From assembly GCF_008729015.1 (NCBI RefSeq), contig NZ_RKSM01000001.1:496001-560000 (forward strand): 64,000 nucleotides of DNA, in the 5' to 3' direction. Position 1 is the stretch's first letter, and each line of letters starts with the position of its first letter. This DNA comes from Haloarcula sp. CBA1129. GTDB lineage: Archaea; Halobacteriota; Halobacteria; Halobacteriales; Haloarculaceae. A program made the position numbers and the translations under genes. The notes beneath the pieces are model-generated. The model ran no database searches. It was not told the DNA's origin and was given only the letters and a program-made list of their open reading frames with translations. Below are positions 169 through 10,185 of this stretch, piece after piece.

Positions 169-1260
169 TTACGGCAGGGGGACAGCTGCAGATGTCGTGA
201 ATACTCCAGCCAGTGCCAGAATGCCAAGGATGAGGGTCGTCGTGATGATGGAGGCGGCTGGCGGGTCGAAGTGCGTGTCGGAGTGCGCATAGAAGATGCG
301 CTGGTACACTTCACCGAGCAGTGCACCTAGGATGCCGAAGAACGCACCCAGACCGAGCGCGACCAGCACACTCGCTCCGTCTGTCATCGCCATACTAGCG
401 ACGAACGTGGCTGGGAGCGTCATGTGGTGTGTGACCGGGAACTTCTCCACGCCGAGGTTCAGGAACAGCAGACTCGCTGCTGAGATACCGAACGGCAGGA
501 AGAGACTCCCGGTTTTGGCGAAGATGTACGCGCCAAGGATGCCGGTGATGAGTCCGAGCATTGCGACGTGTGTCCACTTGTACTGGTGTGGCAGCCACGG
601 CTCGACAGCCGGTCGCTCGGCAGCCATGGCTCCGCCATCCGTTGCGACTTCTTCACTGCTGCTCGACCGCATTTTTCCGCTCTCGAACGGCGACATATCG
701 AGCAGACCGCTTCCGCGGGCACGGCCGATGACCGGGTACCCAAAGACCAGACGGGCGATAACGGCCGTCAGGATGACGCCTGCTGCAGGCGGATCAATGG
801 GAACACCGAGTCCACCGGACGTCTGCCGGATTGCCATACCTAGGACACCGAATACCCCACCGACTGCAAGGACGTCCGGTCGGGTACCAAGGGCGTAGGC
901 GATGTCCTTTGCCGGGTGGTAGTCACCGTCGTCCGGCTCGTACATCCCGTCGTACTTCGCAGCGTACGCGGCTGCTGCCACACCACCAGCGAAGGCGACG
1001 TGTGGCCCGAACACGGGACCGAAGGCCAGTGGGCCGACAATTCCGGCACCGTACCCACCGGCGGCACCCGAGATAACGTCAGGAGAACCACCGACGAACG
1101 ACTCCGAGACGACGTTGCCAGCCTCTCCGATAAGGACCATGAAGCCGGTGAAACAGAACGCTGGGAGTGCACCGATAGAGGCCCCGAATGCTCCGCCTGC
1201 AAACGCCGCGATAGCGAGGACGAGCATATCGACCGCCGTGAGTCCGAATGCGATCGCCAT
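169..1260 (-). CDS. Polytopic membrane protein linked to glpK, possible glycerol facilitator
   Basis: This 363-aa protein has many hydrophobic Gly/Ala-rich segments separated by short acidic loops, consistent with a multi-pass membrane protein. A hydrophilic Ser/Glu-rich insertion sits near residues 195-225. Its ATG at 1258-1260 lies 3 bases after the glpK stop codon, so the two are almost certainly one operon. Haloarchaeal glpK genes are commonly followed by a membrane protein of this kind, which has been proposed to help glycerol entry. That role is inferred from linkage: I see no MIP/aquaporin NPA motifs, so it is not a classical GlpF. Transport of another C3 compound is equally possible. 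Confidence 0.75.
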   Translation of the reverse strand: MAIAFGLTAVDMLVLAIAAFAGGAFGASIGALPAFCFTGFMVLIGEAGNVVSESFVGGSPDVISGAAGGYGAGIVGPLAFGPVFGPHVAFAGGVAAAAYAAKYDGMYEPDDGDYHPAKDIAYALGTRPDVLAVGGVFGVLGMAIRQTSGGLGVPIDPPAAGVILTAVIARLVFGYPVIGRARGSGLLDMSPFESGKMRSSSSEEVATDGGAMAAERPAVEPWLPHQYKWTHVAMLGLITGILGAYIFAKTGSLFLPFGISAASLLFLNLGVEKFPVTHHMTLPATFVASMAMTDGASVLVALGLGAFFGILGALLGEVYQRIFYAHSDTHFDPPAASIITTTLILGILALAGVFTTSAAVPLP

Positions 1261-2796: not shown

Positions 2797-2817
2797 TGTT
2801 GTTTTCTCCGTGGTGGA

Positions 2818-2841
2818 GGTAGCTTATTTATGAAAGCTACC
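2818..2841. promoter_or_regulatory. 8-8-8 inverted repeat in the glpK leader
   Basis: Perfect arms GGTAGCTT (2818-2825) and AAGCTACC (2834-2841) flank an 8-base spacer, 22-45 bases before the glpK start. With a TATA-like box at 2871-2878, transcription would start near 2848, so the repeat would lie just inside the transcript. It could be a repressor operator or an RNA hairpin next to the ribosome binding site. Which of these applies is inference. Confidence 0.5.
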
Positions 2842-2870
2842 ACCTTGCCAGTAAACAACATAGTGAACCA

Positions 2871-2878
2871 TTATAAAG
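2871..2878 (-). promoter_or_regulatory. TATA-like box for glpK
   Basis: On the minus strand this reads CTTTATAA, about 77 bases upstream of the glpK ATG in an A/T-rich patch of otherwise GC-rich DNA. It is the best TATA candidate for the operon. Archaeal spacing of about 26 bases predicts a leader of roughly 50 nucleotides. Confidence 0.45.
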
Positions 2879-2924
2879 ATTACTAATGGTGATGTTTGGC
2901 TAGTAAAGAAAGGGTGCGGCGGCG

Positions 2925-5468
2925 TTACCGGTCAGAATCGTACCGCTCAAGCTGTTTTGTGACCTGTGTGTCGAGTCGGTCGAGCACGCCCGGGACTGAA
3001 TCGGGCCCCTCCATACTATCGACGGCGTCTTCGATGATCGTTCGAACCGTATCGAACGGGCCGATCTGTGCGCCTCGTGTCGCCGTTGTGTCACGTGTGT
3101 CTATGAGCTGGTCAAACGCTGTTCGGTAGTGAGGGTTCTGCTCGAACCAGTCTGCCGACCGGAGCTGTGGAATCGCGTCAGCGTGAACCGGGAAGTACCC
3201 GGTTTCCTGATGCCACCGGCGCTGCTGGGCCGGTTCAGTGAGCCACGTCAGGAATTCGCCGACAGCGTCATGTACGGCCCCGGAAACTGCCTCGCCGACC
3301 CAGAGAGATGCGCCGCCGACGAGCACGCCAGTCCGGTCGTCAAGTACGGGGAATCGGCCGGTTCCAACATCGAAGTCAGCGTTGCTTTCGATGCTGTTCA
3401 GGGACGATGTCGAGCCGATCAGCATCGCGGCGTTCCCCTCGGCGAAGTGAGTTCGGGCGGCACCTCTGGCTTCGATGCCGGGATCGTGGTACAGTCCGTC
3501 CGCTTCGAGGCCCTGCCACCACTCGAACAAGTCGTGGGCGAACTCCCCGTCGAGATAGCTCTCCGTCGGCGACCCGGCGCGACCGTTGCGCTGGTCCACA
3601 AGAAGCTGGTCAGCCTCGGCGAACCACTGCTCGACGAACCACGAGTAGTTCGCAAACGTGATACCGGCATCTACGCCACTCTCGTCGACGAGCTGTTCAG
3701 CCGCGCTCCGAACGTCAGCGAGGGTTTCCGGCGGCGAATCGGGATCGAGTCCAGCACGTCTGAACGCATCGCGGTTGTACGCCATCACCGGGTTCGACGC
3801 GTTGAACGGCAGCGAGTGGAGGGTTCCGTCGAAACGATAGTAGTTCGTCACCGGGTCGAGCAGCGAGTCGATATGGGCTGTCGGGAGGAGTTCCTCAACG
3901 GGCGTAAAGTATCCACTGTCGCGCGCACGCGTAGTGCCGATCTCGAATATCTGTGCGATTGCCGGTGGATCGCCGTTTTCGGCGGCATTCAGCGTCGCAT
4001 CGAGAGTTCCGCGGTAGCTCCCTTTCGACCGCAGTGCGAGACTGATCCCCTCCGTCTGTGATTCGAACTCACGAACCAGCTCTTCAAGCAGTAACGCTTT
4101 CTCACCGCCCATCGCGTGCCAGAACTCGACGACGGTTCCGTCTGTGTTCGCCGCCACCGACCCAGTCGCCAGCTCGAAGGAATCAAGCGATGCTTCCAGC
4201 GATTCGGCCCGTTCAGTGAGTGTCGAAACCCGCGTCGAAACCTCCGCGAGCTCCGTCGTCTGGTCCGCTGCGGCGTCGGCAGCGACAGCTGCTTCTTCGG
4301 CTGTCCGAGCGCTGATATCCTCGACATCGTCGACCATCGACACGACTTCCTGTGTGGAATCAGCCTGCGTATCTGTCGCGTCATCGATTTCTTGGACGCT
4401 CGTATCGACCTCCTCGACCATCGAGACGACGGAATCCAGCTCATCGAGTGCGCTGGCGACTGACGACCGGGTGTCTTCGACACTCTCTCGGGTGTCGTAC
4501 ATCTCCGAAACCGTCGCGTCGGCCTGTTCGTGGACCTCCTGAATGGAGGCCGCAATCTCGTCAGTCGCCTCTTTCGTCTCGGTTGCGAGCGATTTGACTT
4601 CTTCGGCCACGACGGCGAACCCGTCGCCGGATTCTCCCGCACGGGCCGCTTCGATGTTGGCGTTCAGCGCCAGCATATTGGTCTGGTCCGCGACATCCGT
4701 GATGAAGCCGACAATCTCTTCGATGTCCGACAGCAGGTCGTTCAGTTGTTCGACCTTGTCGACGGTCGCTTCAGCGTTGTCGGTCAGTCGGTCGAGCGTC
4801 GTCATCGCCGAGGACGCCGACTCCAGTGCGGATTCGCCTCGAACGCTGGCTTCGCTGGAGGTGTCTGCGACCTCGTTTGCGGCGCTCGCTATCTCCTCTA
4901 TCGTCGCCGAGAGGTTCCGCATCTCGTCGGAGATTGACTGTATCTCATCGCGTTGCTCGTCCGACCCGGTCGAAATCTCCCCGACAGCACCGCTCACATC
5001 CCGGCTGGCGGACTTGACCGACCCGAGACGGGTGTCGACCTGTTCCGTTGCGGCGGTCACCTGTTCGCTGAACGACGCCATCCGGTCGACGGTGTCTGTC
5101 CACTCACGAAGCAGTTCGTCGTATGCGTCGTACAGCGGTTCCGCCGCCTCAGCCGGTGGCTGTCCCGGCTTCGCCGTGAGATCACCATCAGCGTTTTCCC
5201 TGGCCACAGCGGTGAGACGGTCGACAGCGGTTTCGAGCGCGCGACGCTCCGCCCGCTCCTGTTCGAGTTCCGCCGCCAGTTGCTCACATTGTGCTTTCAG
5301 TTCCGCCCGTTCAGGGCCGCTTTCCGTCTCTGGTTCTTTCTGGAGGGATTCTGCCGACGGCGATTCATCTTCCGACTCGTTTCCATCCCGCCCCTCTGTG
5401 ACGCCGCCGTCGGTACGTTCCTCGTCAGGCGGGCCGTCTTCTGAATCAAGTGGGTTCCATTTACTCAT
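2925..5468 (-). CDS. Soluble chemotaxis transducer fused to a UgpB-like glycerol-3-phosphate binding domain
   Basis: From the ATG at 5468 this is an 847-aa protein with no transmembrane segment and no signal peptide. It has an acidic N-terminus, a coiled coil (about 45-95), a HAMP-like stretch, then an MCP signalling region (about 140-435) with the conserved hairpin tip [20 protein letters not shown] near 260-280. After a short linker, residues 445-847 match extracellular solute-binding proteins of the UgpB type. Shared elements are [48 protein letters not shown] and [10 protein letters not shown]. UgpB binds glycerol 3-phosphate, and the flanking genes make and oxidise it, so a cytosolic G3P chemosensor is inferred. 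An upstream in-frame GTG at 5498 would add 10 residues and has a TATA-like box about 30 bases before it. The ATG has GGGAG upstream and is preferred. Confidence 0.9.
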
Positions 5469-5817
5469 TGTCGCTCCCGTTGGCCGAACGGCCAACACGC
5501 TCTCGGGAATAGTCCACTATCAAAATATATAATAGTTACTGTCGAAACGGTATGAGTGATAACTACTGTTTGGGCAGAGATTCAGTGCCAAGATGGCAGT
5601 CCTCACCCCATATAAATTGAAATAATTAAGTCATTATTCGAAAATGTGTTTATACTTCTAACAATGCCTCTCAGAACCTACTGAGAAGTGTGTGCCAATA
5701 GTCCACAATCACCAGTGTAGGGTGACGCTATTCCTCATGATTACATAGAAAATTTACTACCCAAACACCAGCAACGGTAAAGTGAAGTGTATGCGCTCCA
5801 AACCCACGGAAAGATAG
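5469..5817. promoter_or_regulatory. Divergent regulatory region between the transducer gene and glpA
   Basis: This 349-bp stretch has no convincing gene and is A/T-rich. For the transducer gene it contains a TATA-like run at 5523-5533 (minus strand TATATATT) and a near-palindrome TTGGCCG-AA-CGGCCAA at 5480-5495, 12-27 bases upstream of the ATG. For glpA it has several A/T-rich candidates, including CATATAAATTG near 5609-5619 and TTTACTAC near 5753. A purine-rich GGAAAG lies just before the glpA ATG. A short inverted repeat at 5669-5686 is listed separately. Shared control of sensing and G3P oxidation is possible. Confidence 0.5.
5669..5686. promoter_or_regulatory. Inverted repeat upstream of glpA
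   Basis: Perfect 6-base arms TCTCAG and CTGAGA are separated by 6 bases (AACCTA), about 132 bases before the glpA start. It could be an operator for the glpABC operon or the divergent transducer gene. Arms this short also occur by chance. Confidence 0.3.
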
Positions 5818-7548
5818 ATGGGACCGACACCACACATCGCCGTCATCGGTGGCGGCTCGACTGGGGCGGGCATCGCGCGGGACCTCGCGATGCGCGGGCT
5901 CGACGTGACCCTCGTAGAACAGGGGAATCTGACCCACGGGACCACCGGTCGGATGCACGGGCTGCTCCACAGCGGCGGGCGATACGCCGTTTCGGATCAG
6001 GCCAGCGCGACCGAGTGTATCGAGGAGAACCGTGTGCTTCGGGATATCGCAAGCCACTGTGTCGAGATGACCGGTGGTCTGTTCGTCAAGCGACCGGAGG
6101 ACTCTGAAGAGTACTTCCAGAAGAAGCTCAGCGGCTGTGAGGAGTGCGGTATCCCCGCCGAAGTCGTCTCGGGGGAAGAAGCCCGCGCAATGGAGCCGCA
6201 CCTTGCGAAGGACATCGACAAGGCAATCAGCGTTCCTGACGGGGCTATCGACCCGTTCCGGCTGGTCGTCGCGAACGCCGCGAGCGCACAGGAACACGGC
6301 GCACGCATCGAGACACACAGCAAAGTGACCGACCTCCTCGTCGAGAGCGGTGAAGTCGTCGGGCTCGAGGTCGAGCACGACTCCGGCCCCGGGAAACGCG
6401 TCCACGGGACCGAGGGCGGGACCGAGGAAATCCGCGCCGATTACGTTGTGAACGCGACTGGGGCTTGGGCCGGTCGCATCGGCGACATGGCCGGGCTGGA
6501 CATCGAGGTCCGCCCCTCCAAGGGCGTCATGACCATCATGAACATCCGGCAGGTCGACACCGTCATCAACCGCTGTCGGCCGAAAGGCGACGCCGACATC
6601 GTCGTGCCCCACGAGACGACCGCGATTCTGGGCACGACAGACGAGGAGGTCGAGGACCCCGAGGACTACCCAGAGGAGCAGTGGGAAGTCGATATGATGA
6701 TCGACACCCTCTCGGAACTGATTCCGATGCTTGACGAGGCACGGACCATCCGCTCGTTCTGGGGCGTCCGTCCGCTGTATGAACCGCCGGATGTGGGCAG
6801 CGACGACCCGACGGACATCACGCGGGACTTCTTCTTGCTCGACCACGACGAGCGCGACGACCTGCCCGGCATGACCAGCATCGTCGGTGGGAAGTTCACC
6901 ACCTACCGGATGATGGGCGAGCAGATATCCGACCACGTCTGCGAGAAGTTCGGCATCGACGCCGACTGCCGGACGGCTGACGAGCCGCTCCCCGGCAGCG
7001 AGGACTTCTCGGTGCTGCGGGACTACATGGACGAGTTCGGGCTTCGCTCGCCCATCGGCCGCCGGAGCGTCGAGCGGCTGGGCTCCCGAGCCGACGACGT
7101 GCTCACAACCGACGGTCCCAATCCAACGGTCTGCGAGTGCGAGGGCGTCACCCGCGCCGAGATTCAGGACGCAATCAAGGGGTCCGGCTCTGACCTCAAT
7201 GCCGTCCGCATCCGCACCCGTGCGTCGATGGGCAACTGTCAGGGCGGCTTCTGCTCGCATCGGATGGCGAGTGAACTCCACTCGGAGTACGACGAACCGG
7301 TCGTCCGCGAGGCTTGGGACGAACTGCTACAGGAGCGCTGGAAGGGCCAACGCCACGCTCTCTGGGGCGAACAGCTCTCACAGGCCGCGCTGAACTACGC
7401 GCTGCACGCTACTACGCAGAACCGCGATCAGGACCCTGCCGACGGCGACCCGCTCGACTTCTCGGCGTTCGACTCGGGCCGCGGGCAGGCAGGCAGTAGT
7501 GTCGACAGTGCTGATGTCGCTGCCGACGGAGGGACAGATGGCTATTGA
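5818..7548 (+). CDS. glpA: Glycerol-3-phosphate dehydrogenase subunit A (anaerobic type)
   Basis: GlpA is the catalytic FAD subunit of the membrane-associated GlpABC complex, oxidising sn-glycerol 3-phosphate to dihydroxyacetone phosphate and passing electrons to the quinone pool. The 576-aa protein starts with the FAD-binding Rossmann motif [20 protein letters not shown] family-typical [17 protein letters not shown] follows at about 40-60. The C-terminal region carries a BFD-like [2Fe-2S] domain with CECEG near residue 438 and NCQGGFC near 470. The acidic Asp/Gly-rich tail is typical of haloarchaeal proteins. It is the first gene of glpABC, and its last codons overlap the start of glpB by 11 bases. 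Haloarchaea use this anaerobic-type enzyme under aerobic conditions too. Confidence 0.97.
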
Positions 7549-8812
7549 GTCGGAGGTGCTCGTCATCGGCGGCGGTCTCGGTGGGCTGACCAGCGCGCTG
7601 GCTGCTGCTCGCGAGGGGGCCGACGTGCGGTTGGTCTCCTACAAACAGAGCACGCTCAGGCAGGCGTCGGGGCTCGTCGACGTACTGGGCTACACGCCCG
7701 ATGGCGACGGCCCGCTAACTGACCCATACGAGGCCATCCCGTCCCTGCCCGACTCCCACCCGTACCGGAAAGTCGGCGTCGGGACGGTCCGGGACGCGCT
7801 GTCGCTGTTCGACGACGCGGTCCCGACCTACGAGGGAGAGCACACGGACACGAACGCGCTGCTGCCGACCCACGGCGGGAGCATCAAGCCGACCGCCCGC
7901 TATCCGGCCGGGGCCAGCGCCGGCCTCGCCAGCGACACCCGTGACACGCTGCTCGTCGGCATCGAGGAGATGGTCGACTTCGACGCGCCCCACATCGCCG
8001 CCCATCTCGACGCGACGGGGGTCCCGTTCGACGTGCGCGGCGAGACAATTCGGTTCCCGGGCGACCTGCGTGCGGACGCGAAGGTCACGCGCTACGCCAA
8101 ACTGCTCGATACCAACAGCGAGGTGGCGGTCCGCGGGCGCATGGTTCCGGCCCGCGAGGCCCTCGCCCAGCGTGTGAATCCGCTGTTGGAGGACGAACAG
8201 CGGGTCGGCTTCCCCGCGATTCTGGGCGACGACAACCCCGGCGCGATCCGCGACGCGCTGGGTGAGCACCTCGGCGTCGACGTGTTCGAGGTGCCGATGG
8301 GGCCACCGTCGCTGCCCGGTCTCCGGCTGGAAGACGCCCTGTTCGCGGCGCTGGACGAGGCCGGGGCCAGCATCGAGACCGGCAACCCGGTAGTCGACTT
8401 CGATGGCGAGGACCGTATCGAACAGGTGTACATCGAGAAGAACGGCGCGAAGATACCCAACAGCGCCGACGAGTACGTTCTCGCGACCGGCGGCTTCGTC
8501 GGCAAGGGCGTCGAGTCCGACCGCGATGGGGTGTACGAGCCCGTCTTCGACTGCCATGTCCCCCACGCAACGGACCGCTACGACTGGTTCGAGGGCGAGT
8601 TGTTCGGCGACCACGAGTTCGCCCGCTACGGCGTGGCGACCGACGACGACCTGCGACCACTCGATGCGAGCGACAACCACGAGTTCGAGAACCTTCGGGC
8701 CGCCGGCTCGGTGCTGGGCGGCTACGACTTCGCCGCCGAGAAATCCGGCAGCGGCGTCTCGATTGCAACAGGCTACGCGGCGGGCCAGCGCGCCGCAGAG
8801 GAGGCACGATGA
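7538..8812 (+). CDS. glpB: Glycerol-3-phosphate dehydrogenase subunit B
   Basis: GlpB is the second flavin-binding subunit of the GlpABC complex and links GlpA to the iron-sulfur subunit GlpC. The 424-aa protein begins [27 protein letters not shown], a dinucleotide-binding fold at the very N-terminus. The C-terminus contains the second FAD contact region, ending [15 protein letters not shown]. An in-frame start at 7499 would put 13 non-conserved residues before the fold, so the ATG at 7538 is preferred. It overlaps the glpA stop by 11 bases and shares ATGA with glpC, which implies coupled translation. Confidence 0.95.
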
Positions 8813-10185
8813 GTGACGCTGAAACCCCACCAGAGACAGATTTTGACCCGGTAGCACCGAATACAGGCGAGGAGTTCGAACCAGTCGACGTCTTCCCCGA
8901 CAGCGACGACTTCGACCTCCGCCCCGGCGCGGACTCCTGTTACAAATGCTCGACCTGCGACACGAACTGCCCCGTCGCGGAGGTCGACGACGACTTCCCC
9001 GGTCCGAAGTTTCAGGGCCCCGAACAGTGGCGGCTCAAGCAGTCCGACGACGACCACGAGATCGACGATTCGGTGATGGACTGCTCGAACTGCATGCGCT
9101 GTGACAACGCCTGTCCCTCGGGCGTCCCCCTCAGCCAGATGCACAACACCGCCCGCGGGGAGTACGTCAGCGAGCAGATGGACAAGCTCTCCGTCGAGTA
9201 CATCCGTAACCGCATCCTCGCGAACTACCGCACCTCCGCGTTCTTCGCCAGCAAGGTCCCGCGACTCGCGAACTTCGCGATGAACTTCGGGCCGGCCCGC
9301 TGGGTGATGGAGAAGACGCTCGGCGTCACCAGCGAGCGTGATTTCCCGGCCTTCGCCCGGCAGACCTTCCGCGACTGGTGGGCCGACCGAGGCGGTCAGG
9401 TCCAGTCACGCGAAAACGCCCGCGAAGCCCGCAAGCGCCGCGGACTCCCCGAAGACGCCGACAAGAAGGTGGCGTACTTCCATGGCTGTTACTCCAACTA
9501 CAACACGCCGGAGGTCGGCAAGGCGATGGTCCGGGTGTACGAGGAGTTCGGCTACGAGGTCGTCGCGCCCGAGCAGAAGTGTTCGGGGACGCCGATGTTC
9601 GCCAACGGCATGCTCGACGACGCCCGCCGCCACGCCGAGACGAACGTCTCGTCGATGTCCGAACTCGTCGACGAGGGGTACCACGCAATCGCCTCCTGTA
9701 CCTCGTGCTCGATGGCGCTCCGGCAGGAGTACCCCGAGCTATTCGACATCGATGGCATCGACAAGGTCGCCGAAAACACCTTCGAGGCCGTCGAGTACCT
9801 CCGCATCCACGAGGACCTCAAAGGCGAAGTGCAGGCGGCCGACGTGGACGGCGAGCTCGCGGAGGAGTTCGCATACCATGCCCCGTGCCACTCGCGCAAT
9901 CAGGGGCTTGACCGTCAGGCCGTCGAGCTGTTCCGCGACCTCGACGGCGCTGAAGTCGAAGACGTGGGCGACTCCTGTTCCGGGATCTCAGGGACTTACG
10001 GCTGGAAAGAAGAGAAATACGAGAAGTCGATGGAAATCGGCGAGGAGATGTTCGAGCACATGGAACACGCCGAGGGCGAGACCGGCATGACCGAGTGCCC
10101 GACCTGCGCGATGCAGATGGAACACGGGAGCGGCTACGAGATCCGGCATCCGCTCGAACTCCTCGAAGCCGCGCTGGTAGAGTAA
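8809..10185 (+). CDS. glpC: Glycerol-3-phosphate dehydrogenase subunit C, iron-sulfur and CCG domains
   Basis: GlpC anchors the GlpAB dimer to the membrane and relays electrons toward the quinone pool. In this 458-aa protein two 4Fe-4S binding sites are clear: CYKCSTCDTNCPVAE near residue 44 and CSNCMRCDNACPSG near 93. Two CCG (heterodisulfide-reductase-like) domains follow, with cysteine clusters at HGCYSN, KCSGTP and CTSCS, then APCHSRNQG, CSGISGTYG and CPTCAMQ. The N-terminal extension of about 30 residues is acidic and unconserved. It overlaps glpB by ATGA and is the last gene of the operon, ending 21 bases from the convergent universal stress protein gene. Confidence 0.95.
   Translation: MSDAETPPETDFDPVAPNTGEEFEPVDVFPDSDDFDLRPGADSCYKCSTCDTNCPVAEVDDDFPGPKFQGPEQWRLKQSDDDHEIDDSVMDCSNCMRCDNACPSGVPLSQMHNTARGEYVSEQMDKLSVEYIRNRILANYRTSAFFASKVPRLANFAMNFGPARWVMEKTLGVTSERDFPAFARQTFRDWWADRGGQVQSRENAREARKRRGLPEDADKKVAYFHGCYSNYNTPEVGKAMVRVYEEFGYEVVAPEQKCSGTPMFANGMLDDARRHAETNVSSMSELVDEGYHAIASCTSCSMALRQEYPELFDIDGIDKVAENTFEAVEYLRIHEDLKGEVQAADVDGELAEEFAYHAPCHSRNQGLDRQAVELFRDLDGAEVEDVGDSCSGISGTYGWKEEKYEKSMEIGEEMFEHMEHAEGETGMTECPTCAMQMEHGSGYEIRHPLELLEAALVE

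Follow-up and report, generated by a model that had tools for sequence, protein, structure and literature searches.

A haloarchaeal chemotaxis transducer fused to a UgpB-type binding domain, a candidate cytosolic sensor of glycerol phosphate

What would a transport binding protein sense when it is joined to a soluble chemotaxis transducer and encoded among the genes of glycerol catabolism? The question is raised by a gene of Haloarcula sp. CBA1129, at positions 2925-5468 (minus strand) of the 64,000-nucleotide stretch of DNA that was analysed as a whole (the window). We read its product as a cytosolic chemotaxis transducer whose input would be a UgpB-type domain sensing glycerol phosphate between GlpK and GlpABC, and give this reading a probability of about two in three.

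Domain anatomy and topology

The open reading frame begins with ATG, occupies exactly 2925-5468 and encodes 847 aa; the fusion is present in many independent genomes, which rules out a chance reading frame or an assembly artefact. On the minus strand, residues 1-50 (5319-5468) form an acidic tail, judged disordered from its composition and a pLDDT of about 33, which has no signal peptide. There follows a coiled coil with a HAMP-like stub (residues 51-140; 5049-5318; helices taken from the model), and in its motif DGDLTAK the GDL is nearly invariant in the alignment of the fused proteins. The MCP antiparallel coiled coil covers residues 141-430 (4179-5048), with a full and conserved hairpin tip that begins at residue 258; Pfam places MCPsignal at residues 224-385 (E 4e-41), and residues 137-425 match the cytoplasmic (soluble) chemoreceptor of T. 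maritima, 2ch7, in a search of the PDB. A short linker (residues 431-443; 4140-4178; pLDDT <50 at 432-442) connects the C-terminal MCP helix to a UgpB-type solute-binding domain, residues 444-847 (2928-4139), which is recognised by Pfam (SBP_bac_8 at residues 463-782, E 1e-35; SBP_bac_1 also matched), by PDB match and by its modelled fold.

The NCBIfam model of UgpB matches the fused protein over nearly the full model length (E 1e-59); at 202 bits it misses the equivalog cut-off of 411, so the protein is not filed as UgpB itself. E. coli UgpB is the top PDB match of the whole protein (E 9e-51), and the modelled fold points to the same relative. An AlphaFold model that drew on 34 sequences from the window and the loci has a mean pLDDT of 74.9, with most of the binding domain at 80-95; its closest folds are 6x84 (E. 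coli UgpB; Z 51.8), 4aq4 (with G3P; 46.1) and 9lff (with G1P; 45.2), after which come M. tuberculosis UgpB (Z 40.5) and others lower. The entry 6x84 is the W169S, W172S mutant of E. coli UgpB, and the better fit to it (rmsd 1.6 A, vs 3.0-3.2 A for the ligand-bound entries) suggests that the binding domain was modelled in an open state.

No membrane helix was found by a 19-residue hydropathy scan of all 847 aa: the peak Kyte-Doolittle mean, 1.37, is located within the binding domain, and the means for the first 140 residues are <0. Nor does the N terminus carry a lipobox or Tat motif, the sole Cys being residue 61. The stop-to-stop frame lengthens the protein upstream by only 16 residues, so an overlooked upstream helix is ruled out. 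The first-pass annotation had described an MCP signalling region followed by a complete solute-binding domain resembling UgpB, cytosolic and free of membrane helix and export signal, and had named a missed upstream helix as what might overturn it; the order of domains, the relationship to UgpB and the missing helix and signal are all confirmed, and they support a cytosolic binding domain.

Tat/lipobox leaders, read by eye, are present in all 27 free homologues that we compared, and nearly all of these adjoin UgpA/UgpE-like ABC permease genes; leaders and adjacent permease genes alike are absent from all fused proteins examined. Having neither an export signal nor partner permeases, the fused protein is not a transporter component. 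In one clade, four of the fused proteins (f4; L129-L132) begin with a hydrophobic hairpin, two short helices joined by a short loop; from hydropathy, they are possibly membrane-anchored versions of the same cytosolic sensor.

Conservation of the binding pocket

Nine contacts are listed for the G1P and G3P complexes of Phaeobacter UgpB, which binds G3P with a Kd of 0.80 uM and G1P with a Kd of 2.36 uM in the same pocket (PMC12718374). By alignment with that protein, its four phosphate contacts, Tyr64, Ser143, Ser266 and Tyr342, correspond to Tyr485 (4014-4016, minus strand, as are the codons that follow), Ser558 (3795-3797), Ser686 (3411-3413) and Tyr758 (3195-3197), and its three contacts to glycerol hydroxyls, Glu88, Gly303 and Arg393, to Glu509 (3942-3944), Gly719 (3312-3314) and Arg809 (3042-3044). 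The clamp residue Trp191 is kept as Trp610 (3639-3641); the other clamp residue, Trp188, is replaced by Asn607 (3648-3650) and is the sole contact changed. These two Trp residues have been tied to the binding of G1P/G3P as against larger diesters (PMC12718374).

The same pattern extends to the fused family. In a MAFFT alignment of 47 distinct fused sequences, which diverge to about 52% identity in the binding domain, all contacts to the phosphate (four) and to glycerol hydroxyls (three), as well as the second Trp, are invariant (8 of the 9 contacts), and the Trp188 position is Asn or Thr throughout; E. coli and Phaeobacter UgpB thus read YESWWSGYR across the contacts, the fused proteins YESNWSGYR or YESTWSGYR. 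Since only 72 of 402 columns (18%) are invariant overall, the chance of finding at least 8 of the 9 contacts among them is about 6e-6, a figure that treats columns as independent and ignores shared ancestry. The contacts are conserved well beyond the domain background, which speaks for a functional pocket. Most free haloarchaeal homologues read YESNWSGYR, with one subgroup, to which the exported paralogue of the window genome belongs, lacking the Glu and the Arg; with Trp188 being Asn or Thr in the fused and Asn in the free haloarchaeal proteins, specificity may differ from that of bacterial UgpB.

The first-pass annotation took intracellular G3P to be the ligand and suggested a comparison with the UgpB pocket. 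That comparison is compatible with a glycerol phosphate, with eight of the nine contacts kept; the narrower choice of G3P is weakened by the changed Trp and by the poor discrimination of UgpB itself, which binds G1P nearly as well, so that the ligand may instead be G1P or some other small glycerol phosphate. The only other close homologue in the window genome is an exported UgpB-like lipoprotein (L135:9211-10407) that adjoins ABC permeases and has no equivalents of Glu88 and Arg393; its pocket, YSSNWSGYQ, indicates that it probably binds another ligand.

Gene neighbourhood

The flanking glpK and glpABC on which the first-pass annotation relied were identified at NCBIfam curated cut-offs: glpK, glycerol kinase, at 1264-2796 on the minus strand (TIGR01311, 723 bits against a cut-off of 590), and glpA, encoding subunit A of the anaerobic G3P dehydrogenase (5818-7548), glpB (7541-8812) and glpC (8809-10185) on the plus strand. 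Directly behind glpK a polytopic membrane protein is encoded (169-1260, minus strand), with no family match in Pfam or NCBIfam; its linkage to glpK makes it a candidate glycerol uptake protein, and the pairing is kept in distant haloarchaea.

Every locus of the Haloarcula clade that reaches far enough has the order glpC-glpB-glpA, the divergent fusion, glpK and, usually, the membrane protein. In the clade L129-L132 the fusion is beside glpK/glpAB; the genes ahead of it are glpK, that of the membrane protein and an AAA/Cdc6-like one, and after it comes ptsH, joined in most loci by ptsI; three of the four loci also have dhaK, dhaL and dhaM nearby. The same pts/dha side is found in Halalkalirubrum (L031); glpABC and glpK lie within reach of the fusion in G265 (L120), and in L108 glpK is about 2.3 kb away. 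Two clades (L102-L105, L112-L114, L121, L127 and L128; and L122-L125) have no glycerol gene adjoining the fusion, and their neighbours are housekeeping or glycogen genes.

Distribution and phylogeny

An intact fusion, counted as an open frame of about 800 aa or more, is present in 40 of the 293 genomes of the order, and two further genomes, G230 and G236, have broken or frame-split copies. In a scan of named genomes, the fusion was returned for Haloarcula amylolytica, japonica, vallismortis, mannanilytica, sebkhae, argentinensis and pellucida, together with Halomicroarcula rubra, Halomicrobium katesii, Halalkalirubrum salinum and three MAGs. When 392 genomes of the phylum were searched with this query alone, all matches with E 1e-40 or better lay within the order; other binding proteins may be fused in this way elsewhere.

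All 40 fused genomes carry glpK, vs 246 of 293 overall (p 5e-4, shared ancestry ignored), and 39 of the 40 have a CheA, vs 214 of 293; the exception, G173, may be a threshold case, with several hits just under the cut-off. The same-genus genomes G227 and G289 are without the fusion and G230 has its broken copy, while glpK and MCPs are kept in all three. In a genome of the genus other than the window genome (L106:8010-9547) a broken fusion gene adjoins intact glpK and glpABC, a recent loss.

The phylogeny was built from haloarchaeal domains, 30 of them fused and 27 free, with two bacterial UgpB sequences as outgroup. A branch with support 92/99 has all the free domains on the same side, a tree that is compatible with a single origin of the fusion and does not prove it.

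Comparison with known systems

The nearest relatives of the binding domain, UgpB of E. coli (4aq4) and of Phaeobacter (9lff), share its whole-domain fold, 28-31% identity and 8 of 9 contact residues. UgpB, however, is the binding protein of the Ugp ABC importer, whereas the fused protein is inside the cell, joined to an MCP, has no adjacent permease genes and has Asn in place of Trp188.

Halobacterium salinarum has both chemotaxis that relies on binding proteins (BasT/CosT) and a metabolite transducer located in the cytosol, Car (PMC3579733). In BasT/BasB and CosT/CosB (Kokoeva 2002, as cited in PMC3579733) the transducer obtains its ligand recognition from a binding protein, as the fused protein would, but in those systems a separate, external binding protein acts on a transducer in the membrane, whereas here both are one soluble cytosolic polypeptide. 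Car (Htr11), the cytosolic arginine transducer, is likewise a soluble haloarchaeal MCP and reports an internal metabolite; its ligand differs from the one proposed here. To our knowledge Car is not an SBP fusion. The protein is best read as a cytosolic metabolite transducer, comparable to Car, with a built-in binding protein, comparable to BasT/BasB.

The architecture is not wholly unseen, since the survey of Cha et al. (2022) lists SBP_bac among the sensor-domain families of archaeal MCPs and notes C-terminal cytosolic sensor domains (class V); its main text gives SBP_bac without a protein, ligand, pocket or gene context (PMC9680633). In the open-access literature we found no paper on the fused transducer, or on its combination with this pocket and gene context.

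Proposed mechanism and alternatives

From these observations we infer the ligand, the passage of the signal and the sign of the response. A UgpB-type domain would have lost its export signal and joined the C-terminal end of an MCP coiled coil. Glycerol entering the cell would be phosphorylated by GlpK and removed by GlpABC, and the level of glycerol phosphate between these steps would drive closure of the binding domain. Such a movement beside the C-terminal MCP helix would change helix packing, and thereby CheA activity and archaellum switching, such that the cell would swim according to its internal glycerol flux. With one CheA match and 14 MCPs in the window genome, the simplest output would be a change in swimming. 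Against the scheme stand the replaced clamp residue, the two clades in which the fusion has no glycerol gene beside it, and the same-genus genomes that lack the fusion or have it broken and yet keep glpK and MCPs. The interpretation given in the first-pass annotation is supported in large part, while its taxis toward glycerol and its link to Dunaliella are inferences.

Several other explanations were weighed. Haloarchaea make sn-glycerol 1-phosphate for their lipids, and the signal might be this precursor, or both enantiomers summed, in which case lipid-precursor or triose-phosphate status rather than glycerol catabolism would be reported. The shared pocket of Phaeobacter UgpB (PMC12718374) and the fusions that sit away from glp genes speak for this, yet glycerol catabolism genes are linked in several lineages and glpK is carried by every fused genome, and we think it unlikely. 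Slightly less probable again is another small phosphate compound, such as a glycerophosphodiester or dihydroxyacetone phosphate; the loss of one of the Trp pair that is linked to G1P/G3P vs larger diesters (PMC12718374) speaks for it, as does dhaKLM adjoining the fusion in L129-L131 and L031, but the remaining eight contacts are all invariant. That the binding domain is a ligandless relic, a structural cap only, might be argued from the one changed contact and the broken copy in G230; against 18% of columns overall, eight invariant contacts of nine make this very improbable.

The output, too, could be a different one. In H. salinarum, CheW2 but not CheA fished the cytosolic Htrs 11, 13 and 15 (PMC3579733), and the fused protein might act by way of a separate array on something other than swimming, for example glp gene expression; its full MCP hairpin tip, the single CheA match of the window genome and the presence of CheA in nearly all fused genomes make this improbable. 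A binding domain outside the cell, as in classical transducers, would accord with the export leader of every free homologue compared and with the hydrophobic hairpin of the four f4 fusions, but the MCP hairpin can meet CheA only in the cytosol, no membrane helix separates it from the binding domain, and the f4 hairpin, being two helices with a short loop, should leave both protein ends inside; with neither helix, signal nor leader on the window protein, we regard an external domain as ruled out.

Metabolism-dependent taxis is usually put down to the sensing of redox state or proton-motive force. If the glycerol phosphate reading is true, a soluble receptor whose metabolite pocket can be recognised makes such taxis directly testable, is a clear example of the fold of an exported binding protein put to new use as an internal sensor, and connects chemotaxis with glycerol, which is a major source of carbon in brines. 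On balance we favour the view that a transport binding protein has been turned inward as the sensor of a soluble chemoreceptor, and that haloarchaea would navigate by how much of an intermediate of glycerol catabolism (or of a lipid precursor) the cell contains, a metabolic-flux taxis that has a defined sensor.

Upstream regions and an associated ATPase gene

Comparison of the loci revealed a conserved CAGTAACTATTATATA block ahead of the fusion, in the divergent intergenic region (5469-5817), and a TATA-like AGTAATCTTTATAATG block in the gap before glpK (2797-2924, minus strand). The two are similar, of the form AGTAAY...TATA, and may represent either core promoter elements of the archaeal type or a control site common to both genes; co-regulation of the fusion and glpK is possible on this likeness. 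Because glpK has a conserved block of its own it probably also has its own promoter, which weakens the idea of the fusion as a mere first gene of a glpK operon. In many loci an AAA/Cdc6-like ATPase gene (L019:15363-16538) is conserved behind the glpK-linked membrane protein.
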